Origin: Amphiura filiformis
Taxonomy: Eukaryota; Echinodermata; Ophiuroidea; Amphilepidida; Amphiuridae
DNA length: 64,000 nucleotides
Direction of reading: 5' to 3'
Assembly (NCBI RefSeq): GCF_039555335.1
Contig: NC_092642.1
Coordinates: 60,243,776 to 60,307,775, forward strand
In this document: in pieces, positions 27,447 through 64,000 of the stretch
Layout of the letters: every line of letters begins with the position of its first letter
Numbering within the stretch: position 1 is the stretch's first letter
Notes under the pieces: generated by a model
The model's database searches: none
The model's input: the letters and a program-made list of their open reading frames with translations, nothing else
What the model was told of the DNA's origin: nothing
Program-made: the position numbers and the translations under genes

Positions 27447-28490
27447 AGTAGTTCATCAATGTGCTATCTACTACTGATAGCAAGTATTTCACGTGCTATC
27501 TACGAACTACTGCTGATAGCAAGTAGTTCATCAATGCGCTAGCTATATACTGTTGATAGCAAGTAGTTCATCAATGCGTTATCTACTGCTGATAGCAAGT
27601 AGTTCATCGATGTGCTATCTACTGCAGATAGCAAGTAATTAGTTCAATGTGCTATCTACTGCTGATAGCAAGTAGTTCATCGATGTGCTATAGACGCTGA
27701 TAGCAAGAGTTCATCAATGTGCTATCTATTGCTGATAGCAAGTAGTTCATCAACGTGCTATGTACTGCTGATAGCAAGTAGTAGATCAATGTGCTATCTA
27801 CTGATAGCAAGTAGTTCACATGCTATCTACCGCTGATAGCATGTAGTTCATCAATGCGCAATCTGCTGATAGCAAGTAGTTCATCAATGCGCAATCTACT
27901 GCTAATAGCAAGTAGTTCATCAATGCGCAATCTACTGCTGATAGCATGCAGTTCATCAATGCACAATCTACTGCTGATAGCAAGTAGTTCATCAATGTGT
28001 AATCTACTGCTGATAGCAAGTAGTTCATCAATGCGCAATCTACTGCTGATAGCAAGTAGTTCATCAATGCGCAATCTACTGCTGATAGCAAGTAGTTCAT
28101 CAATGCGCTATCTACTGCTGATAGCAAGTAGTTCATCAATGCGCAATCTACTGCTGATAGCAAGTAGTTCATCAATGCGCAATCTACCGCAGATAGCATG
28201 TAGTTCATCAGTGCGCTATCTACTGCTGATAGCAAGTAGTTCATCAATGCGCTATCTACCGCTGATATAGCATGTAGAGGGCCCTTGTGTAAAGCAGTGC
28301 TGGACCACTGATCTTGGCTACCCTCTTTAAATATGTCTGAAATAAAATAAATGTAATTCATCAATGCGCTATCTACTGCTGATAGCAAGTAGTTCATCAA
28401 TGCCATATTTAATGGCACTACTACTGCTAATAGCAAGTATTTCATCAATGCCCTATCTACTGAAGATAGCAAGTACTTCATGTGTTACTG
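27447..28490. repeat. 36-bp hairpin minisatellite, block 1
   Basis: About 28 units of roughly 36 bp, each with GCTATC, a TACTGCT spacer and GATAGC (a 6-bp stem), followed by AAGTAGTTCATCAATGC. Many units have GCAATC in place of GCTATC, which weakens the stem. Because 36 is a multiple of 3, frames stay open for long distances on both strands (for example 27816-28481 minus, 27854-28270 plus). These are artefacts of the period, not genes. Confidence 0.9.
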
Positions 28491-28898: not shown

Positions 28899-29262
28899 TC
28901 TATCTACTGCTGATAGCAAGTAGTTCATCAGTGCCATATCTACTGCTAATAGCAAGTATTTCATCAATGCCCTATCTACTAATGATAGCAAGTACTTCAT
29001 CAATGTGTTGCTGTTATCTGCTGCTGATATCAACTAGTTCATCAATGTGCTGACTGCTGATATCAAGTAGTTCAACAATGTGCTATCTACTGCTGATAGC
29101 GAGTAGTTCATCAATGCGCTATCTACTGCTGATACCAAGTAATTCGTCAATGTGCTATCTACTGCTGATAGCAAGTAGTTCATCAATACCTATCCAATGC
29201 TGATAGAAAGTATTTCATCAACGTGATCAATGCCCTATGCTGATAGCATGTACTACTACATG
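28899..29262. repeat. 36-bp hairpin minisatellite, block 2
   Basis: About ten further units of the 27447-28490 repeat, more diverged, with variants such as GCTGATATCAAGTAG. The array decays into unique sequence before 29283. Confidence 0.85.
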
Positions 29263-30009: not shown

Positions 30010-30890
30010 CGTGCATTTATTTATTTATTTATTTGGAAGGGTTAAAGCTCATCTTCCAGGTCTCCTGCCATGTTTCAAGAGATTTTAGATCAGCTTGTAG
30101 AGAGTCCATGTCCCTTTCATCTGACACTGTAGAGTACACCAGGCAGTCGTCTGCGAAGAGTCTTACTTGGTTGCTTAACTTGTCCGGGAGGTCGTTTATA
30201 TAGGTTAAAAACAACAACGGCCCAACACCGTCCCCTGTGGTACTCCAGAAAGGACCTCTTTGGGTGATGAAAAGTTGCCCTCGCACGCAACTCTCTGGAT
30301 CCTATTTGTTATTTAATTTCTGATCCATTGATGAAGGTTGTTTCTAATCCCATAATGATGAAGCTTATTCAGAAGGCGTTCATGAGGAACCTTATCAAAG
30401 GCTTTGGAGAAGTCTAGAACTGCCATATGCATTGAATCCCCTTGTTCCAAAGCTCTTGCAATATCATCAACAGTTAAAATTAGTTGAATTTCAGTGGAGC
30501 GCTTAGACCTGAAGCCATGTCGTGAATCAACCAAAATATTATGCTGCTCCACGTGATCCATAACATGAGAATGTATAATATGCTCCAGAATCTTGCAGCT
30601 GACGCTTGTTAACGAAACAGGTCTATAATTTTCAGGCACGGCTTTGTCCCTCTTTTTAAAGATGCCACAAATGTTTGCCTCCCTCCATTGATGGGGGAGA
30701 GTCCCTTGATCAACAGAAGCTTGGAACAAGTCTGTAAATATCGGCGCAAGTTTCTCAGCAAACATTTTGAGAAACCATGGAGGTATCTCATCAGGCCCTG
30801 CTGCTTTATTCGGAGACAGTTCCTGGAGTTGCTTTAAAACCCCCTTTTCATGAATAATTAAATCCGGAATGTCTTGAATACTGCTACTGC
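30010..30890 (-). pseudogene. Jockey-type non-LTR retrotransposon reverse transcriptase, broken
   Basis: The reverse transcriptase would copy its own RNA at a nicked target. Reading leftwards: finger region (SPNKAAGPDEIPPWFLK near 30800), thumb-proximal blocks (WREANICGIFKKRDKAVPEN and YRPVSLTSVSCKILEHII), motif A (LDFSKAFDKVPHERLL, about 30380), a damaged motif B with GPLLFLTYINDLPD, and motif C (LFADDCLVY, about 30150). A frameshift near 30290 divides it into two frames (30313-30765 and 30029-30286). Sequence upstream of 30890 and the endonuclease are missing. The coding part stops at SFNPSK, directly followed by four ATTT repeats at 30018-30033, so the 3' end is also lost. A dead, doubly truncated copy of the jockey/CR1 grade. 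Confidence 0.85.
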
Positions 30891-33810: not shown

Positions 33811-33933
33811 AATGTATAATAAACACAGCCAAAATAAAAAGTCTCCACTAGTTCCATACCCATTTAATCAGAGTCTGATGAGTTTATGGCAAAGTAATTT
33901 ATATAATAATTTTCTATACACTTTCCTTCGAAG

Positions 33934-34061
33934 TTGTGGGATAGGCTTTTACGACGAGAATTCATAACAATTAGTGGGTTTTTAGCGGGTTCGCCGTCGG
34001 ACAAGTTTAGAACTGTCAAGCTTTCGTCAGGAGTAGCTCTGACTTCATCAGGACAAAGTAC
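33934..34061 (-). repeat. Penelope-like element terminal repeat, 3' copy
   Basis: 128 bp, matching 36946-37073 with only one or two differences (GACGAGA against GACGGGA). Contains the hammerhead-like core and the codons that open the N-terminal ORF. Upstream of it on the minus strand lie the stem-loop array and promoter-like region, which are missing from the 5' copy. Confidence 0.9.
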
Positions 34062-34062
34062 C
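34010..34062 (-). ncRNA. Hammerhead-like core in the Penelope terminal repeat
   Basis: Minus strand: CTGATGA (34051-34045), an A, helix GTCAG/CTGAC closed by loop AGCTACTC, then GAAA (34025-34022). The same core is in the other repeat copy (37063-37034). Helices I and III are not convincing, and in the 5' copy the same bases are read as protein (CPDEVRATPDES), so conservation could be for coding. Hammerheads in Penelope terminal repeats are established for other members. Confidence 0.4.
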
Positions 34063-34100
34063 TAAGAATGAGACATGTAGACCGCTCCTTGTCTACTGAT

Positions 34101-34116
34101 GACTCTGAAAAGAGTC
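34101..34116 (-). promoter_or_regulatory. Histone-type 3' stem-loop, copy 1 (variant)
   Basis: Sense strand GACTCTTTTCAGAGTC followed by ATCA. Relative to the consensus GGCTCTTTTCAGAGCC, position 2 and its partner have both changed (G-C to A-T), so the stem still pairs. The TTTC loop is unchanged. Such paired change suggests the structure has been maintained, though one pair is limited evidence. Confidence 0.65.
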
Positions 34117-34189
34117 GTTCACTGAAGACTGCCCCTTGTCAACAGAGAACAAGCAGATCTCGCCTATCTGCTAATATAAAGGTTTTGGT

Positions 34190-34205
34190 GGCTCTGAAAA
34201 GAGCC
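34190..34205 (-). promoter_or_regulatory. Histone-type 3' stem-loop, copy 2
   Basis: Sense strand GAAC, GGCTCTTTTCAGAGCC, ACCAAAA. This equals the metazoan replication-dependent histone mRNA 3' stem-loop (6-bp stem, 4-base loop) with an ACC(A) 3' flank like that of invertebrate histone genes. In histone mRNAs it binds SLBP and directs cleavage without a poly(A) tail. I see no purine-rich U7 snRNA site in the next 20 bases. Confidence 0.8.
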
Positions 34206-34279
34206 GTTCACTGAAGACTGCCCCATTGTCTACAGAGAACAAGCAGATCTCGCCTATCTGCTAATATAAAGGTTTTGGT

Positions 34280-34295
34280 GGCTCTGAAAAGAGCC
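34280..34295 (-). promoter_or_regulatory. Histone-type 3' stem-loop, copy 3
   Basis: Identical in stem, loop and near flanks to the copy at 34190-34205. Confidence 0.8.
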
Positions 34296-34446
34296 GTTCA
34301 CTGAAGACTGCCCCTTGTCTACAGAGAACTAGCAGATCTCGCCTATCTGCTAAATTAAAGGTATATACTGTAATAGAAGTATACGGCTTACCAGGAACCG
34401 TTTGGCCACTCATGGACCGATTGATTGATTGTATGCACGATGAGCG

Positions 34447-34591
34447 TTTATATCACTTAATTGCGGACGTGGTACAGATTAGCGGCTCTGTGATTAGTTG
34501 TTTGAAAAATAGAGAGCGCCACATACGATGTGATAAGATTAGCGGCTCTGTGATTGGTTGTTTGAAAATAGAGAGCGCCACATACGACTGA
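34447..34591 (-). promoter_or_regulatory. Promoter-like region of the Penelope-like element
   Basis: A 60-bp unit is tandemly duplicated (about 34476-34535 and 34536-34591). The sense strand of the right-hand unit has AACCAATCACAGAGCCGC, a CCAAT box; the left-hand one is degraded to AACTAATCAC. TATAAA follows at 34452-34447, about 100 bases downstream. Transcription would then run into the stem-loop array and, in a tandem arrangement, the ORF. It overlaps the end of the endonuclease frame. Assigned from motifs only. Confidence 0.45.
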
Positions 34592-34985
34592 TGTCTTTGT
34601 CGTCATTTCTATTGATAGTAGAAGTTTCATTAACTCTGATTTCCAAAGCTTCACGCGTCAACCTCATCCCCAACTTGTGTGAGTGAGAAACTTGTGCCAG
34701 TTTTGTTGTTTCGTCCCACAGAGGTTCATGGCCTTCTTTGCAAGCATGTTCAGCTAATGCCGAGCCTTCTTCTTTCTTTTGTCTTGTGGCTCTTCGGTGT
34801 TCAGATATTCTGACCTTTAGTGGTCGTTTGGTTTGGCCTATGAATTGCTCACCACGACTGCAAGTGCAAGGTATAGAGTACACACATGGTGCACGATCCT
34901 TGGGCAGAGGATCTTTTGGGTGGTTTAGGATGTCTCTTAATTTGGCCGACCTAGAGTAGAATGTTTTGACCCCTGATCGGTTTAG
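34539..34985 (-). pseudogene. Penelope-like element GIY-YIG endonuclease domain
   Basis: The open stretch before the domain reads GVKTFYSRSAKLRDILNHP. The domain then reads VYSIPCTCSRGEQFIGQTKR, PLKVRISEHRRATR and SALAEHACKEGHE. This is the Penelope form of the GIY-YIG fold (VYxIPC...FIGQTxRxLxxRxxEH), which nicks target DNA for reverse transcription. It is out of frame with the RT by a shift near 34985, so the fusion protein is broken. The first ORF-track-style methionine at 34883 is not a true start, because the domain continues upstream. Confidence 0.8.
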
Positions 34986-36600
34986 AACCGACAGATCTTG
35001 TCTGATACACCTTTGATATATGACATGAAGGTAACGCCTTTGTGTTCATCGTCCACCAATTCTTCTGATCGTTCTCCTGTCTGTTTCTTGATTGCCTTGT
35101 GAATGAGGTTTGAGGGATAGCCATTCTTGTTCAACGCTTTTTCAATGTGTTTGAGTTCGTCTTTTCGATGTTCTTCATCACACAGAGTCAGTGCTCTGTG
35201 AACCAGTGTATTGACAACACTGTTCTTGGCAGACATATGGTGACTAGAGTTAAAATGAAGATATTGATCAGTATGAGTGGGTTTTCGGTATATGGCGAAA
35301 CTCAAGCTAGTGTCTGATCTCTGCACTTTGACATCAAGGAAAGGTATGCCACCCGCCTCCTCAATCTCCATTGTGAACTGGATACACTTGTGTTGATTGT
35401 TGAGATGACTTAGGAATTTGACCAGTTCGTCTTTGCCATGTCGCCAGACGACGAATGTGTCATCAACAAATCTGAACCAAGCAACGGGTTTCAAAGGATA
35501 CGTATCTAGTGCTTTGGTTTCAAAGTGTTCCATGAAGATATTCGATGTTATTGGGGAGAGGGGTGAACCCATTGCCTGACCCTCTTTTTGTTCATAGAAT
35601 TTCCCTTGCCATTTAAAGTACGTAGATGTGAGGCATAACTTCATAAGTTCTACGATCTCATCGCTTGTCATGCGTGTTCTGTTTTTAAGTGTATCATCAT
35701 CACGCAAGATATCTCCTATAATCTTACTAGCATCATCAATTGGTACATTAGTGAATAATGATACCACATCAAAACTGACCAATAAGTCACCTGGTTCTAT
35801 GGGTATTTGCCCTGCCTTTTCAACAAAATGTTGCGAGTTCTTGATGTAGGAAATGCCTTTCCCTGATAAGGGTGTCAATATATCCGCTAGGTGTTTCGCT
35901 AAATTGTAGCATGGTGAATTGATTGAGCTGACAAGAGGTCTAAGTGGCATGTTTTCTTTGTGAATCTTCGGTAGACCATATATACGTGGAGACACAGTGT
36001 GCTTAGGTGTTAAATGTGATGCCTTTTTCTTATCAACCTTGTTCTGTTCCTTCAACTCAGAGATGGCCTTACCTATCTTGCGTTCAAGAGATAGGGTGGG
36101 ATCTTTCTTCCTGACGTGATAAGTATCGCCTTCAGACAATAAGTTGTTCATTTTCTCTTGGTACTTATCTTTGTCCATAACAACGGTAGACCGCCCCTTG
36201 TCTGCTGGAAGGACAATTATGGAATCATCATTCTTGAGTGAATTCAACGCTTCTCTCTCTTCTCGAGATGGTTGAGGAACTTTGGCTTTCTTGAGAACCC
36301 TGAGAACATCACTTCGCACTAGGTTGGCTTCACCTTCACATAAGTCTTTTAAGCCGTGTTTGGTCGCCGCTATTAACTCTTTGACCGGAATGCTCGTTGG
36401 AGTTGGTGAGAAATTCATGCCTTTGCTTAAGATAGAATTTTCAGATTCACTAAGTTCCCTACTACTTTCATTGCGGACTGTATTTTGAGGAAAGTCACTA
36501 TTATTTCGCCAATCCCGCCTTAGGATGTTGACCGGCAGGTTTTCTTGTTTTAGACGGGCAAATTTCTGAAGATGTTCTTGCTTAACACGTGAGTATATTA
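34982..36600 (-). pseudogene. Penelope-like element reverse transcriptase
   Basis: The 478-codon open frame from the ATG at 36418 (open upstream to about 36590) holds a whole Penelope-type RT. Counting from that ATG: PADKGRSTVVMDKDKY (71-86), PRIYGLPKIHK (144-154), motif A SFDVVSLFTNVP (215-226), motif B GQAMGSPLSP (280-289), motif C RFVDD (316-320), then IPFLDVKVQR and YRKPTHTDQYL. All catalytic aspartates (D217, D319, D320) are present. It is separated by frameshifts from the N-terminal piece (near 36590) and the endonuclease (near 34985). The intact core suggests recent inactivation. Confidence 0.9.
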
Positions 36601-37082
36601 TCGGCTGCTATCTTGGCCACACGTGATACAGTTTTAAAATCCATTTCATTCATATTATCTTTGAGCCAATTGTACGTTTGATTTATTTCATTGGATATAC
36701 GTTGCATTTGCTGGCGATTTTCATTAATCGTGGCTCTGACGAGAGATAGACCAGCTTGTAGCATAATGCATTTTGCTTTATTAGACTTGACACCCGTTGT
36801 GGGCATTAGACCTTTGGGAACAATATCATTGTCTCTGCATCTTCGTACTAAGAGCAATTGATTGTGCAGTGTAGCATTCTTGCATAGTAGTTTCTTATAT
36901 TTCTTGGAATATATCTTGCCGTCCTCCCCGTAGAGGTTAAACAAATTGTGGGATAGGCTTTTACGACGGGAATTCATAACAATTAGTGGGTTTTTAGCGG
37001 GTTCGCCGTCGGACAAGTTTAGAACTGTCAAGCTTTCGTCAGGAGTAGCTCTGACTTCATCAGGACAAAGTACGTGATACAA
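36582..37082 (-). pseudogene. Penelope-like element N-terminal ORF segment
   Basis: Open frame of about 166 codons with no early ATG, beginning inside the 5' terminal repeat: DESLTVLNLSDGEPAKNPL, then SLSHNLFNLYGEDGKIYSKK, LLLVRRCRDNDIVPKGLM and NEINQTYNWLKDNMNEMDFK. This matches the poorly characterised leader that precedes RT in Penelope-like elements. In the 3' copy an ATG lies just upstream (minus strand 34076-34074) but a stop separates it from this frame. It ends in a frameshift before RVKQEHLQKFARLKQE, the continuation into RT. Confidence 0.75.
36946..37073 (-). repeat. Penelope-like element terminal repeat, 5' copy
   Basis: 128-bp direct repeat of 33934-34061. The match stops at the GTAC at 37070-37073, so the promoter region and stem-loop array present beside the 3' copy are absent here. 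That is the usual truncated 5' pseudo-LTR. Confidence 0.9.
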
Positions 37083-37245
37083 TTCCCTATGTCATTTTAA
37101 AAATTGCACGAATTTCCAAACAACGGTCCTTATGGTCACGATTATTGAACTTTTGATATCAAAGTTGGTACCAACCTTTGAAGGAAAGTGTATAGAAAAT
37201 TATTATATGGATTATTTTGCCATAAACTCACCATACTCTGATTAA

Positions 37246-38640
37246 AAGTCTTTATACTAATATTACCAGGTCGATCAAACCTTTTGTGTCTTCTGGGCTG
37301 AATAAATCTTCTGGACTCGCAGTATATTATGAATAGCTGACTTTTGTTAGGAACTGACCGGTTACCTATTGTTCATTTATTATCAAAAAGCTGGCCTTGA
37401 CACAAAGCAAGTTATTTTTTAACTATTAGGCCAAAAAAAATGTTTGGTTGTACTACAACTGGTCCAAAAAGGTAAGATCGGTCGGTCGGATTTTTTTTTC
37501 ATATGGCCTTTTTGTTGCAAAAGAGGCAAAGCAAGTTAACATGGTGTTTGGGTTTTTAAACACCTATGCAGTTGTACGGCAACATGAATGTATGTCTGAA
37601 TTACGGCTGTCGATTTCCGTTTAATGTGGTAAACGGTAAAAAATCGGCCGTTTAAACGTAAAAAACAACAACAAGAAAACAGCTACCAATGCATACTAAG
37701 ACCCCCTTTTGAGAACTCAAAAATTCCAGCCTCCCCCCTTTGGTCATGAAAATTATGGGTAACAGTGGCGTACCGTGGCCGCTCCTACCCCGGGGGCTAA
37801 GGAAATGTAAATTTTGCCGCCCCTTGCAGCAACAGCCCGAAAAGGTTGACCCAATTTTTTTCCAGCCAGGACGGCTCTCGAAAATCTAAAAAGTGGTGGT
37901 GGGGAGGTAGGAGGTAGAACATTTTTCACCGATTATTTTCAAGTTTAATTTTACAGGTGTTACACCGCCCTAATAACCCACACAGCTTAGAGCTGTCGCC
38001 CTGTTGACAGTCAAAAAGGTATACTTTCATTAATTTTCAATAATTTTTTGCCATTTTTCCTTCATAATTATTTTTGCCGCCCCTTAAGTCCCGCACTTTT
38101 TTCTTTTGTTACTCTTTATGCCGCCCCTTTATCTTCCGCCGCCCTTCTTTTTTACCGCCCCTACTTTTACCCCGGGGCTGGCGCCCCAAAGGCCCCCCCA
38201 AAAAAAACATACGCGCATGGGTAAACCCCATAGAAAAACATATAAACTCAATTTTCCCAGGTAAATTTGTGGTCATTTTTTCAGGCCCCCCTTAGGAGGG
38301 TCAAACATTTTCAGGCCCCCTTTTTTTGCATCAGGCCCCCCTAACAAGTGTTTGTGAACGGTCCCTAATTCAATGTGTCCTGGCTGTTTAACAGAAGCAA
38401 AAGTAATCAAAAATGTACAACTTTATCCAACTTAGAAAAAAATAGCATTTTTTTTAAGTTGCAGTATTTCTCCGGATTCCAACCTTGAGTAACAATTAAT
38501 TTAGGGCTTATGACTTCTTCTTTTTTTTCTTCAATTTTTGTAAATAAAAAAAATTGGGTCGGCCTCAAACATCGGGTCGGTCGGTCAAGTACAACAATAA
38601 TTGTACTCGTCAAGTTCTGAATGGTCACTTTACCCTCAAC
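37246..38640. other. Repeat remnants, no gene
   Basis: Contains ATTAGGCCAAAAAAAATG (37424) and GATCGGTCGGTCGGA/CGGGTCGGTCGGTC pieces (37478, 38572) shared with the insertion at 28491. An hAT-like terminus AACAGTGGCGTACCGTGG (37759) and GC-rich CCGCCCCT runs follow, ending in CCCCCCTAACAAGTG with GAACGGTCCCTAA (to about 38369). Likely one or two decayed DNA transposons. Confidence 0.5.
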
Positions 38641-56223: not shown

Positions 56224-59030
56224 TTTGATACACTTTTGATACACCACTTTTGATACGTATGAAAAATGTATGAAATAAAAGGATTTGAATTGGAACCCTC
56301 ATTTCATACACTTTTATGTATCAAAACTGTATCAAATTAACATTGCATACACATTTTATACATATCAAAAGTGTATCAAATGCCAAGATAATGTATCAAA
56401 AAAGTATCAAATGAAATGTATCCTTTCATTTCATACATGTTTGATACATGATTATATCAAAAGTGTATCAAATAAGTAACTGTATCAAATGAGGGTTCCA
56501 ATTTAAACTGTATCAAATTAGCGTTAAAATTTTTATCCTTTCATTTCATACACATTTCATACATAATTTATATCAAAAGTGTATCGAATATGTTACTGTA
56601 TCAAATGAGGGTTCCAATTTAACTGTATCAAATTAGCGTTAAAATTTTTATCCTTTCATTTCATACACATTTCATACATAATTTATATCAAAAGTGTATT
56701 GAATATGTTACTGTATCAAATCAGAGTTCCAATTTAAACTGTATCAAATTAGCATTCAAATTTTTATCCTTTCATTTCATACACATTTCATACATAATTT
56801 ATATCAAAAGTGTATTGAATATGTTACTGTATCAAATGAGGGTTCCAATTTAAACTGTATCAAATTAGCATTGAAATTTTTATCCTTTCATTTCATACAC
56901 ATTTCATACATAATTTATATCAAAAGTGTATTGAATATGTTACTGTATCAAATCAGGGTTCCAATTTAAACTGTATCAAATTAACATTCAAATTTTTATC
57001 CTTTCATTTCATACACATTTCATACATAATTTATATCAAAAGTGTATTGAATATGTTACTGTATCAAATCAGGGTTCCAATTTAAACTGTATAAAATTAG
57101 CATTGAAATTGTTATCCTTTCATTTCATACACATTTTATATAAAATTTATATCAAAAGTGTATCGAATATGTTACTGTATCAAATGAGGGTTCCAATTTA
57201 AACTGTATCAAATTTGCGTTCAAATTTTTATCCTTTCATTTCATACACATTTCATACATAATTTATATCAAAAGTGTATCGAATATGTTACTGTATCAAA
57301 TGAGGGTTCCAATTTAAACTGTATCAAATTAGCGTTAAATTTTTTATCCTTTCATTTCATACACATTTCATACATAATTTATATCAAAAGTGTATTGAAT
57401 ATGTTACTGTATCAAATCAGAGTTCCAATTTAAACTGTATCAAATTAGCGTTCAAATTTTTATCCTTTCATTTCATACACATTTCATACATAATTTATCA
57501 ATGTATGTAACTGTATCAAATCAGAGTTCCAATTTAAACTGTATCAAATTAGCATTGCAATTTTTATCCTTTCATTTCATACACATTTCATACATAATTT
57601 ATATCAAAAGTGTATTGAATATGTTACTGTATCAAATCAGGGTTCCAATTTAAACTGTATAAAATTAGCATTGAAATTTTTATCCTTTCATTTCATACAC
57701 ATTTCATACATAATTTATATCAAAAGTGTATCGAATATGTTACTGTATCAAATGAGGGTTCCAATTTAAACTGTATCAAATTTGCGTTCAAATTTTTATC
57801 CTTTCATTTCATACACATTTCATACATAATTTATATCAAAAGTGTATCGAATATGTTACTGTATCAAATTAGCGTTCAAATTTTTATCCTTTCATTTCAT
57901 ACACATTTCATACATAATTTATCAATGTATGTTACTGTATCAAATCAGGGTTCCAATTTAAACTGTATCAAATTAGCATTGAAATTTTTATCCTTTCATT
58001 TCATACACATTTCATACATAATTTATATCAAAAGTGTATCGAATATGTTACTGTATCAAATGAGGGTTCCAATTTAAACTGTATCAAATTTGCGTTCAAA
58101 TTTTTATCCTTTCATTTCATACACATTTCATACATAATTTATATCAAAAGTGTATTGAATATGTTACTGTATCAAATCAGGGTTCCAATTTAAACTGTAT
58201 CAAATTAACATTCAAATTTTTATCCTTTCATTTCATACACATTTCATACATCATTTATATCAAAAGTGTATCAAATAAGTAACTGTATCAAATCAGGGTT
58301 CCAATTTAAACTGTATCGAATTAGCATTCAAATTTTTATCCTTTCATTTCATACACATTTCATACATCATTTATATCAAAAGTGTATCAAATATGTTACT
58401 GTATCAAATCAGGGTTCCAATTTAAACTGTATCAAATTAGCGTTCAAATTTTTATCCTTTCATTTCATACACATTTCATACATACTTTATATCAAAAGTG
58501 TATCAAATATATTACTATATCAAATCAGGGATCCAATTTAAACTGTATCAAATTAGCGTTGAAATTTGTATCCTTTCATTTCATACACATTTCATACATA
58601 ATTATATCAAAAGTGTATGAAATATGTAACTGTATCAAATCAGGGTTCCAATTTAAACTGTATCAAATTAGCATTGAAATTTTTATCCTTTCATTCCATA
58701 CACATTTCATACATAATTATATCAAAAGTGTATGAAATATGTAACTGTATGAAATCAGGGTTCCAATTTAAACTGTATCAAATTAGCGTTGAAATTTTTA
58801 TCCTTTCATTTCATACACATTTCATACATAATTTATATCAAAAGTGTATCGAATATGTTACTGTATCAAATCAGGGTTCCAATTTAAACTGTATCAAATT
58901 AGCATTAAAATTTGTATCCTTTCATTTCATACACATTTTATACATAATTATATCAAAAGTGTATCAAATATGTCACTATCAAATCAGCGTTCCAATTCTA
59001 ATGCTGGCCAGCAGGACCGCCCTATTTTTG
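56224..59030 (+). repeat. ~116-bp TGTATCAAA satellite array
   Basis: About 23 units of roughly 116 bp: CTGTATCAAATTAGCGTTC, AAATTTTTATCCTTTCATTT, CATACACATTTCATACATAA, TTTATATCAAAAGTGTATC and GGGTTCCAATTTAAA. TGTATCAAA-like 9-mers recur four or five times per unit. Units differ by a few bases and two (near 57500 and 57925) carry a short deletion. Open frames through it are periodic and not genes. Confidence 0.95.
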
Positions 59031-59985: not shown

Positions 59986-60440
59986 GATACAGTTTTGATA
60001 CACTACAAAAGGTCAGTTTATGAAAGCCCAATTTGATACACTTTTGATATACCTCTAGCCACCAAAAATTAACTAAGTTCAATTTGATACACTTTACATA
60101 CACTAAAAAATAATCAAAGTCCAATTTGATACACTTTTGATATACATCTAGCACCAAAAATGAACTAAGTTCATTTTGATACACTTTACATACACTAAAA
60201 AACTGCAAAGTCCAATTTGATACACTTTTGATACACCACAAGCATAGCCAAAAATTAACTAAGTTCAAATTCGATACACTTTTGATACATTTTTGATACA
60301 GTTAGGTGGTATTTGATACAGTTTTGATACCCTATATTTTCAGTTGATACATTTTTAATACACCCTTTGTATATCAAAACTGTATCAAATTGCCGTTTGA
60401 TACAGTTTTAATACACTTCGATACACTTTTGATACACTTC
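59986..60440 (-). repeat. TTTGATACA array abutting Gypsy pol
   Basis: Units of about 60 bp (AATTTGATACACTTTTGATA, ACCAAAAATTAACTAAG, TTCAATTTGATACACTT), then denser TTTGATACA repeats up to the Gypsy reading frame. Opposite in polarity to 56224-59030. Confidence 0.85.
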
Positions 60441-63400
60441 TTGCTGTATAGAATTTCTGCTAGGGTGATGACCAGGTTGAACTGTTGCTGGTTGCACTGC
60501 ACTGTTGACTGGTTGTTCTAGTTGTAACTCTGGAAGTGTGTCATTTCTTGGCTCTTGACGTACATATTCTGGTACTGGTAGGAGATGTTTTCTATTTCTC
60601 CTAAGTTCATGTCCTTCACTTGAAATTATGTAGGATCTTGGTTGAGGACCAACTTGCTTGACAACACCAGCGCGATCAAATCCTTTCTTTGTCTGGAGTC
60701 TCACAGGCTGATTTACAAGTAGAGGTTTCAGCACTTTTACATGCTTGTCATAAGATGCTTTCTGCTGATTTCTCTTCTTGTCAAGTTGGTTTCTTACTGT
60801 CTTTGGTTGGATAACAGCAGGTTGTAGCAGTTTGCTGTTAGTGTACATGGGTGTTCTAATGGATCTAGACATAAGTCTTTGAGCTGGAGATCCAAGAACT
60901 GAGTCTCTGGGTATGTTTCTGACATTTAACAAGTTCATGTAGATGTCGGAACCTTCTCTCTTGGTTTTCTCTAACAGTAGCTTGGCTTGTTTCACTGCGT
61001 TTTCAGACAAACCGTTTGACTGGGGGTATTCGGGACTGCTTGTAATGTGAGTAAAGTTCCATTCTTTGGCGAACGCTTTGAACTGGTGTCCCGAAAACTG
61101 ACCACCATTGTCGCTGATGACGATTTGGGGGGTACCATGCGTTGCGAAGTGACGCTTCAGCTTTGTTATCACTGTTGTCGCTGTCAAATTTGCGAGGCTG
61201 TTTATTTCATACCATCCCGAATAGGAATCTACTACCACAAGATAGTGCAAACTATTCCATTCGAAAATGTCTGTACCGACAATTGTCCATGGCAGATCTG
61301 GAATGTCATGAAGCACTAAAGGCTCCTTCTGCTGGTGGCTCTTTAGCGCATTGCAGATTGAACACTCGGTTACATGTCTGTCTAAATCACTGTTCATTCC
61401 GGGCCAGTACACTATATCGCGGGCTCTGCGCTTTGTAGCTTCAGCGCCTTGGTGTCCACGATGTAAGATCTTAGCATACTCTGTGCGGAGTGATTGTGGA
61501 ATTACTGCTTTCTGTCCTTTCATGACTATACCGTTATCTACTACCATCTCTTCGCGGAATGGGAAGTAGCTGCGTATCTCTGGTGCACATGCTGAATGTG
61601 TCTTGGGCCATCCACGATGCACTGTGTCTATCAGTTTCTGCATCGCTGGATCTTTCGCTGTTTCTTTGATTAGCTCTTCTTTTCTATTGTCCGACACTCT
61701 GGAGTTAGAAATCGTCATGACTTCATATTCAAAGTTAATGTCATCCTTTCTAGTAGAGGGCGCTCTTGAAAGTGTGTCAGCTAAATAGAGTTCAGCTCCT
61801 TTCTTGTAGTACAATTCGAAATCATACCTCTGTAGTAGCAGCATCATCTTCTGTAAGCGTGATGGTGCTTTAGATATTGGTTTTTTCAAAATTGTCACTA
61901 GGGGCTTGTGATCCGTTTCTATGCGGATGTGCTTGCCATATATGTACTGGTGGAACTTGCGACACGCGAAGGTTATACTTAGCAACTCCTTCTCAATTTG
62001 CGCGTAATGTTGCTCTGTCTCCGTCATAGTACATGACGCAAAGGCTATAGGTCTACCATCTTGCATACATGCACATCCAAGTCCAAACTGGCTAGCATCG
62101 CAGGTGAGTGTCAATGGCTTGTTGACATCATAAAATGCGAGTACTGGAGGACTACTTATCAAACGCTTTAAAAGCTCATCAAAAGCTCGTTGATGTTCAT
62201 TTTGCCAGCTGAATTGGACACCTTTGTGTAGCAACTGTCTTAGTGGTGCTGATACTTCGCTGAAGTTTTCTATGAACTTTGACACATAGTTTACCATGCC
62301 GAGAAATCGTTGCAGGTCTGCTGGTCCTTCAGGTATCGGAATTTCATTAATCGCGGATACCTTCGCTGGATCGGGCTTGATCCCTTTATCTGTTATGAGG
62401 TGACCAACATAACCGACTTCTGACTGCCTAAATTTACATTTGTCCTTGTTCAACTTCAAACCGACTTCTCTTGCTCTCTTCAACACTCTCTCTAAATTTG
62501 CATCATGCTCTTCTAGGTCCTTTCCGGCAACTAACAAATCATCTACAATGATTGAACATGGGTATCCTTCAAACAATGTTTCTATTGATCGTTGAAAGAC
62601 TTCCGACCCACTGTTAATTCCGTATGGCATTCTGAGATACTTGTATCTCCCTAGCGGAGAGTTAAAGCAAGTGAGTTTGGATGACTCTTCATCCAGAGGG
62701 ACCTGCCAAAAGGAAGTTTTGGCATCTAGCACTGTGAACACTGTAGCATCCGCTAAATTCATAGTTATCTCTTCGACCGTTTTCATTGGATGATGTGGTC
62801 GCCTGAGTGCTCGATTAAGATCTTGCGGGTCTATACAGAGTCTTATGTCCTCACCATTCTTCTTCTTTGTTGCTACTAATGACGAAACCCACTCTGTGGC
62901 TTCCTCGACAGGCTCTATTACACCTAATGCTGTCATTCGTTTCAACTCTTGAATCACTTTCTCCTCCATTGGCTTTGGTACTTTTCTGGGGGGTCGTATC
63001 ACAGGAGGCACTGCTGGGTCAAGGGTCATCTTGTACTTGATTGGTAGTGCGCCCAACTTATCATCAAATAAGTCTGCGTATTCAGTAATTTCTACCGGAG
63101 TGTCAATGATGTGAACCGTGTTCATGTTCAATGTGATTAAACCCATATTCAATGAATCTCTGCAACCCAGTAGTGGTACGACTGAAGATCTTGATGCGGC
63201 TACGATCTTGAATTCTGTGTTGTATTTCTTTCCATCACTGATACACTCAAGTCTAGCAACACCAATAGTTGGTATGATGGTACCTCCATACGCTAATAAA
63301 CCTGGTTTGTATTGCGTGTTGAGGTGTTGGTCACAACCGATTTGCTGCAGAAGAGACATTGGCATAACACTGCACTTGGCTCCTGAATCAACTTTGATGT

Positions 63401-64000
63401 TGACACTGTGACCATTCACTTGCAAATTGGTGTAAATAGAATCTTGATCAAATAGCTGAGGGCAATTTATACTTCCTATCATGTCTATCACATAGTCTGT
63501 ATAATCTATGTCCTCCTCCTGCACATCTATTTCATGTACGCTTCGCTGACCGTGTTGTGCAGGTCTTGCTTGCTGTCTTCTGCGACTGCGACACATATGC
63601 TTGAAGTGATTCGGCTTCTTGCAGAAATGACAGGTTTGCCCCATTGCTTTGCACTGTCCGTTCGGATGACTGGCTCCACAATTCTTGCATTCTCTTAATG
63701 GCTTGCTTGTACTAGGAGGGGTAGGACTGGGATTTGAATTCACCTTAGGCTTAAATTTCCTGTAATTTGCGGACTGTGGTTTTTTCTTGTTGATATAGTG
63801 TACGGCGCTTGTTGAATCCGAATCGGCTGCTGCGGCTGTAAGTGTCTTGGAATGCGCATCAGTCATTTCAGAAATCTGGCCCAACTGTACTGCTTTCACC
63901 AGTGTAAGATCACGTTCTTTCAACATCGATCTTCTCAGTCTATCATTATTTATACCACACACGATCCTGTCTCTAATAAGCTCGTCTGGGGTGAGTTTAT
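60408..64000 (-). CDS. Ty3/Gypsy Gag-Pol, open to the window edge
   Basis: One uninterrupted frame that continues past 64000, so the Gag N-terminus is outside. Counting from the codon at 63962: Gag zinc knuckles CKNCGASHPNGQC (92) and CHFCKKPNHFKHMC (111), protease VDSGAKCSV (191), RT motif A VLDAKTSFWQV (411) and catalytic IIVDDLL (471), RNase H with LTCDASQFGLG (619) and ETDHKPL (682), integrase zinc finger with HRGH (834) and CSIC (867), and integrase core D898, D951 and E987 with the classic 35-residue D-E gap. It makes the element's own capsid RNA-binding, protease, RT/RNase H and integrase activities. After residue about 1170 the frame runs into satellite DNA and stops within ten codons. 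The true tail is at 56086-56223. Every catalytic residue is intact, so the element was active recently. Confidence 0.95.
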   Translation of the reverse strand, partial: KLTPDELIRDRIVCGINNDRLRRSMLKERDLTLVKAVQLGQISEMTDAHSKTLTAAAADSDSTSAVHYINKKKPQSANYRKFKPKVNSNPSPTPPSTSKPLRECKNCGASHPNGQCKAMGQTCHFCKKPNHFKHMCRSRRRQQARPAQHGQRSVHEIDVQEEDIDYTDYVIDMIGSINCPQLFDQDSIYTNLQVNGHSVNIKVDSGAKCSVMPMSLLQQIGCDQHLNTQYKPGLLAYGGTIIPTIGVARLECISDGKKYNTEFKIVAASRSSVVPLLGCRDSLNMGLITLNMNTVHIIDTPVEITEYADLFDDKLGALPIKYKMTLDPAVPPVIRPPRKVPKPMEEKVIQELKRMTALGVIEPVEEATEWVSSLVATKKKNGEDIRLCIDPQDLNRALRRPHHPMKTVEEITMNLADATVFTVLDAKTSFWQVPLDEESSKLTCFNSPLGRYKYLRMPYGINSGSEVFQRSIETLFEGYPCSIIVDDLLVAGKDLEEHDANLERVLKRAREVGLKLNKDKCKFRQSEVGYVGHLITDKGIKPDPAKVSAINEIPIPEGPADLQRFLGMVNYVSKFIENFSEVSAPLRQLLHKGVQFSWQNEHQRAFDELLKRLISSPPVLAFYDVNKPLTLTCDASQFGLGCACMQDGRPIAFASCTMTETEQHYAQIEKELLSITFACRKFHQYIYGKHIRIETDHKPLVTILKKPISKAPSRLQKMMLLLQRYDFELYYKKGAELYLADTLSRAPSTRKDDINFEYEVMTISNSRVSDNRKEELIKETAKDPAMQKLIDTVHRGWPKTHSACAPEIRSYFPFREEMVVDNGIVMKGQKAVIPQSLRTEYAKILHRGHQGAEATKRRARDIVYWPGMNSDLDRHVTECSICNALKSHQQKEPLVLHDIPDLPWTIVGTDIFEWNSLHYLVVVDSYSGWYEINSLANLTATTVITKLKRHFATHGTPQIVISDNGGQFSGHQFKAFAKEWNFTHITSSPEYPQSNGLSENAVKQAKLLLEKTKREGSDIYMNLLNVRNIPRDSVLGSPAQRLMSRSIRTPMYTNSKLLQPAVIQPKTVRNQLDKKRNQQKASYDKHVKVLKPLLVNQPVRLQTKKGFDRAGVVKQVGPQPRSYIISSEGHELRRNRKHLLPVPEYVRQEPRNDTLPELQLEQPVNSAVQPATVQPGHHPSRNSIQQEVYQKCIEVY

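Follow-up and report, generated by a model that had tools for sequence, protein, structure and literature searches.

The window analysed here, a 64,000-nt stretch of DNA, holds a Penelope-like element (PLE) on its minus strand, and direct-repeat comparison showed that the ORF of this element is bracketed by two copies of a 131-bp direct repeat, the pLTR, with 98.5% identity. The 5′ copy (36943..37073, −) includes the ORF start, with the ATG at 36977, while the 3′ copy (33931..34061, −; 131 bp, ATG at 33965) forms the start of the next tandem unit and terminates at +35 of the ORF. The pLTR therefore stands in partial tandem and takes in the ORF start, the arrangement by which PLEs are recognised. 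The ORF itself is in three pieces, of which the N-terminal (36585..36977, −) and C-terminal (34542..34970, −) parts share one frame and the reverse transcriptase (RT) part between them (34982..36418, −) lies in another; these two frame changes indicate a decayed copy that is most likely dead. The RT part matched PF00078 (RVT_1, E 3.3e-10), and we take it to be of PLE type from known motifs, its NCBIfam matches being to other RTs and far below cut-off. Pfam gave nothing above cut-off for the N-terminal part. The C-terminal part is presumably GIY-YIG-like, judging by eye from its motif; Pfam, PHROGs, NCBIfam and PDB sequence searches recognised no endonuclease in it, and its predicted structure (mean pLDDT 46.8) was too poor to use.

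A putative hammerhead-like motif was found by pattern matching in the 3′ pLTR copy (34010..34059, −) and again in the 5′ copy (37022-37071), composed of the stem I strands ACTTTGTC/GACAGTTC, CTGATGA, stem II, GAAA, GC and TT. Stem I forms about 4 pairs beside the core, helix III is absent and there is an extra A at stem II; Rfam scans of the window and of 33901-34620 listed no hammerhead family for this motif. Minimal hammerheads, mostly without helix III, are reported for all available PLEs (PMC6155905). Inverted repeats of ~74 bp, 91% alike (33863-33936 and 37172-37246), flank the whole PLE and end near TTAA, and are possibly a small DNA transposon that served as the target of PLE insertion.

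Similar architectures are known from Penelope/Poseidon-type PLEs (PAc, Anolis; PMC11167929), which have in common with this element the RT ORF, the partial tandem with a pLTR at the ORF start, a hammerhead-like motif (putative here) near the ORF start and a 3′ terminus that falls within the beginning of the following ORF. Unlike the element here, PAc is described in the main text without a histone-type stem-loop array. In Adineta vaga Pen2 (PMC3846280), the pLTR extends over 12 aa from the start of the ORF, compared with +35 nt here, and palindromes at the pLTR 5′ ends are a point of likeness to our element; the main text makes no mention of histone. Searches of sequence collections gave no relatives: the whole RT piece had two pattern matches among viral contigs, neither confirmed, and its 60-aa core none, the pLTR 32-mer had no match in viral contigs, and tblastn against a plasmid collection found none. 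Since the collections comprise viruses, plasmids and prokaryotes, these absences are uninformative on whether animals hold further copies.

On the sense strand the ORF end (34542), together with a 60-bp repeat, is followed by an array of three units and then by the 3′ pLTR. The 60-bp repeat (two copies, 34476-34587) spans the ORF stop codon. Tandem-repeat and folding analyses placed the three units, of 89-90 nt each, at 34097..34365 (−), with tandem-repeat detection reporting a 90-bp period and 2.9 copies at 34103-34362. Each unit consists of three adjoining hairpins. The first is GCAGAT...ATCTGC; the second pairs GTTC, CTG and AGAC with GTCT, CAG and GAAC around U-U mismatches, its inner part being weaker in unit 3; and the third, a histone-type stem-loop followed by ACCA or ATCA, is GGCTCT-TTTC-AGAGCC in units 1 and 2 and GACTCT...AGAGTC in unit 3. 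The fold of the 331 nt around the array was better than those of 100 of 100 shuffles (z −3.58), and predicted stem pair probabilities in this context were 0.82-0.99 for all three histone-type stem-loops. An earlier, sequence-based reading of this stretch (the original prediction) had described three sense-strand hairpins 89-90 bases apart, two of them identical and one a variant with a compensated pair, all of which was found as described, with starts at 34295, 34205 and 34116 on the minus strand (spacing 90 and 89). The two extra hairpins per unit and the downstream pLTR copy were absent from it.

Copy 1 of the histone-type stem-loop (GGCTCTTTTCAGAGCC, 34280..34295, −) and copy 2, which has the same sequence (GGCTCTTTTCAGAGCC, 34190..34205, −), each scored 31.3 bits against the Rfam model of the histone mRNA 3′ end (RF00032, Histone3), and copy 3 (GACTCTTTTCAGAGTC, 34101..34116, −) scored 18.0 bits. 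The corresponding E-values from a cmscan of 33901-34620 (720 b) were 5.3e-7, 5.3e-7 and 0.049. For this copy of the element, the proposed histone type is borne out by Rfam E-value in two stem-loops, while all three scores stay under the curated cut-off of 34 bits, such that Histone3 is missing from the results when the window is scanned at the gathering threshold. All three stem-loops are preceded by TGAAC; copies 1 and 2 are followed by ACCAAAAC and copy 3 by ATCAGTAG. The histone-type flanks that had been claimed are present at copies 1 and 2 (AAC, ACCA; GAAC and ACCA around copy 1), and at copy 3 the 3′ flank reads ATCA.

Two of the three copies combine a 6-bp stem with a G-G start, a 4-nt loop of the TTTC type and an ACC(A) flank, with copy 3 differing at G7 and at ACC. 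Copies 1 and 2 share the 6-bp stem, TTTC loop and ACCA with replication-dependent histone mRNA 3′ ends (RF00032), and also a worm-like AAC 5′ flank; the differences are that the element has no recognised histone downstream element (HDE), a flank that is predicted to be paired, three tandem copies and one lost G7. A possible identity of 23 letters with sea-urchin histone mRNA ends was set aside, since a literature text search found the AAC-extended form in no paper, the 16-mer alone accounting for the matches. The same 16-mer is used in mammalian H2a substrates (PMC7026596), and in C. elegans the mapped 3′ ends of histone mRNAs likewise have AAC before the stem (PMC1924863).

We estimated how often such sequences would be expected by chance. 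A first-order Markov model gave 8.2e-5 occurrences of the histone-type class per 64 kb on both strands, counting 144 variants of stem, loop and ACC and leaving out the AAC 5′ flank, and 2.1e-7 for the exact 19-mer over the same 64 kb and strands; across the window a histone-type pattern has two sites, copies 1 and 2. The class estimate is weakened by the many windows that were read and strengthened by the AAC flank that lies outside the count. In a 257 Gb prokaryote collection the exact 19-mer occurred twice, against 1.9 occurrences expected if all bases were equally frequent. Among viral contigs, the 19-mer with any last loop base occurred once, as a loop variant, and the hairpin with its GAAC flank not at all. 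After inspection of their surroundings, the matches in the one viral and two bacterial contigs were taken as chance. The likeness of the element's stem-loops to that of histone mRNAs is real and is unlikely to have arisen by chance.

Four substitutions and one gap separate unit 3 from unit 2, and two of the substitutions form the compensated pair, which lies at position 2 of the copy 3 stem. When two substitutions were placed at random in the 16-mer, 1.7% of the simulations yielded a stem pair compensated in this way. The same change puts A in place of G7, and the flank reads ATC for ACC. Unit 3 stops resembling the other units just past ATCA, near where histone mRNAs end, which we estimate to be a coincidence of a few percent; a stretch resembling the second hairpin (repeat family D4) follows ATCA at once, which weakens the argument from this boundary. 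Directly after copy 3 lies a stretch with an extra hairpin (34077..34098, −) that agrees in 20 of 22 letters with the ADKGR stretch of the element's own RT ORF (36186-36207), a match reached by none of 1000 dinucleotide shuffles, and which may be an ORF piece copied to the pLTR side. A plus-strand hammerhead considered at a CTGATGA beside copy 3 was rejected by eye, GAAA being missing from the required place.

The inserted copy spans all three stem-loops and continues for 166 nt beyond ATCA to its terminus at +35. In PLEs, reverse transcription starts inside the RNA, within the first part of the ORF that belongs to the following copy (PMC11167929), and insertion past all three stem-loops, as expected of such internal starts, suggests that the template was probably read through. 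The template RNA of this copy was therefore probably uncut at the stem-loops, unless the 3′ pLTR pre-existed. An RNA that ended at a stem-loop would not carry the RT start site downstream of the ORF. The proposal that the array gives the genomic RNA repeated ends like the R region of LTR elements was consequently rejected for the template, for which it is unlikely given insertion to +35, and is possible for an mRNA form.

Signals that accompany histone mRNA processing were then set against the array. The contact of G7 with Arg181 of the stem-loop-binding protein SLBP is called key, and the minimal SLBP site is given two flanking 5′ adenines, in PMC10388802. G7 is present in two of the three stem-loops (copies 1 and 2). 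In the 5′ flank, AAC, a C adjoins the stem, and folding predicts the flank to be paired in the preceding hairpin in all three copies (probability of being unpaired 0-0.07); we infer that SLBP needs this flank free. The AAAGAG core was found downstream of none of the stem-loops, in 45 nt after copies 1 and 2 and 40 nt after copy 3, the latter holding AAGGAG. Duplexes of the mouse U7 5′ end with the 45 nt after copies 1 and 2 reached −5.9, matched by 77% and 83% of 300 mononucleotide shuffles, and those of the fly U7 5′ end −5.0, matched by 39%. After copy 3 the mouse U7 value of −11.9 was marginal (8% of shuffles) and the fly value of −7.7 unremarkable (17%), compared with −18.1 (0.7%) for the positive control of mouse H2a with mouse U7; the fly test was without a positive control, and mouse or fly U7 may differ from that of the host. 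Mouse U7 forms poor duplexes with fly HDEs (PMC7026596), and with pairing host-dependent in this way the mouse and fly results are not decisive for the present host. Deletion of the HDE abolished stem-loop processing in human cells (PMC7807067). Neither AATAAA nor ATTAAA occurs on the sense strand from the ORF end to 33931, where about one poly(A) signal would be expected by scaling, such that their absence is weak and no evidence alone.

The best single explanation of these observations, in our view, is that the mRNA carries a leaky 3′ signal of histone type and that templates arise by read-through; we give it a probability of roughly one in three. SLBP would bind stem-loop copies 1 and 2, and part of the RNA would stop directly behind ACCA; this form, lacking poly(A) and favoured in S phase, would be the mRNA from which the RT protein is made. 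Transcripts that pass the leaky signal and extend into the following pLTR and the beginning of its ORF would be the template, on which reverse transcription would start inside that ORF. By its position the array is both the 3′ UTR of one copy and the upstream region of the next. The analysis establishes the sequences and how they are arranged, the match to Rfam, the downstream pLTR copy and the +35 terminus, whereas SLBP binding, ending at the stem-loop, S-phase use and two RNA forms are inferences. Counted for this explanation are the Histone3 score of 31.3 bits reached twice, the chance expectation of 8e-5, the AAC flank, the predicted formation of the stems, the compensated pair and the precedent of H2A.X; counted against it are the lack of AAAGAG and of a U7 duplex, the paired flank with its C, the changes in copy 3 and an inserted copy that runs through the stem-loops. 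The original prediction is supported in part: copies 1 and 2 are of histone type by their Rfam E-values and flanks, while histone-type 3′ end formation would be a further step, opposed by the missing AAAGAG, the lack of a U7 duplex above shuffles after copies 1 and 2, the paired flank, the loss of G7 in copy 3 and the read-through insertion. H2A.X has two coexisting mRNAs, one that ends at the stem-loop and one that is polyadenylated after read-through and retains the stem-loop (PMC7807067). It resembles the model in combining a stem-loop end with read-through RNA, and differs by its HDE and by a poly(A) site further downstream, no counterpart of either having been recognised in the element.

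Two other explanations come close behind the leaky-end reading. The first, which we regard as possible but on balance improbable, is that the units are structural or promoter repeats of the pLTR, with a role as promoter monomers, as structure in the 5′ UTR or as hairpins that bind protein, and that their likeness to histone mRNA ends is incidental. The units lie upstream of the next ORF and downstream of promoter-like words on the sense strand (CCAAT at 34557, in one copy of the 60-bp repeat, TATAAA at 34452 and TATATA at 34367), as had been noted originally, and TATATT occurs in units 2 and 3. Such words are weak evidence. The two non-histone hairpins of each unit, the fold of the array (z −3.58) and the palindromes reported at pLTR 5′ ends in Adineta PLEs (PMC3846280) are also as a structural repeat would have it, whereas the joint occurrence of a histone-type stem, loop and 3′ flank would be rare by chance (8e-5).

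Hardly less plausible, and still unlikely, is that the element captured the 3′ end of a host histone mRNA, which multiplied along with the 90-bp unit and is now a passenger with no role. A histone core within histone flanks would be expected of such a capture, as would the observation that the histone letters end shortly past ACCA with no downstream element recognised; and if 34077-34098 derives from the RT ORF (20/22), capture of small pieces may occur at this locus. Against this, pairing is preserved in copy 3, and nothing resembling a histone gene was recognised outside the stem-loops and their near flanks. Histone gene debris in the window was rejected as far as H3 and H4 are concerned, matches to human H3 and H4 queries being at noise level (best E 0.69). 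Chance likeness, selected from many windows and motifs, is improbable, since Rfam scores under the curated cut-off and a 19-mer found in prokaryotes at about its chance rate have to be set against a class expectation of 8e-5 per window that the uncounted AAC flank makes rarer still.

If the leaky-end reading is true, the histone-type stem-loop would be a concrete 3′ end for a PLE gene, and a mobile element would be using the histone mRNA ending, with retroelement expression linked to S phase. Among known metazoan mRNAs this ending is peculiar to replication-dependent histone mRNAs, as stated in PMC10388802. The broader proposition, that a PLE family took over the histone mRNA ending through tandem SLBP-bound stem-loops, an S-phase mRNA without poly(A) and a read-through template, with protein and template arising from two RNA forms coupled to DNA replication, is doubtful, and a single element copy with two frame changes cannot show histone-like use by the element. 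If the stem-loops are a captured fragment and nothing else, they would indicate that PLE units can acquire and amplify short RNA ends. Literature searches, judged largely from the titles listed, turned up no description of such a stem-loop in a PLE or another retrotransposon, in loose agreement with the remark that none was known in PLEs; in two of the papers (PMC8490949, PMC11722881), histone concerns chromatin.

The remaining ORFs of the window, which include retroelement ORFs and one with an OAS1_C domain, would in our judgement suit an animal source. A second RT fragment, separate from the element, lies at 30313-30765 (−; RVT_1, E 5e-17), and a long LTR-type pol ORF of 1184 aa at 60408-63962 combines domains for RT, RNase H and integrase. 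A 36-bp tandem repeat occupies 27447-28267 (~23 copies) and 28900-29221 (~9 copies), and a satellite-like, AT-rich array with a 116-bp unit extends over 56419-58997. An ORF at 47930-48304 matches OAS1_C (2′-5′-oligoadenylate synthetase).
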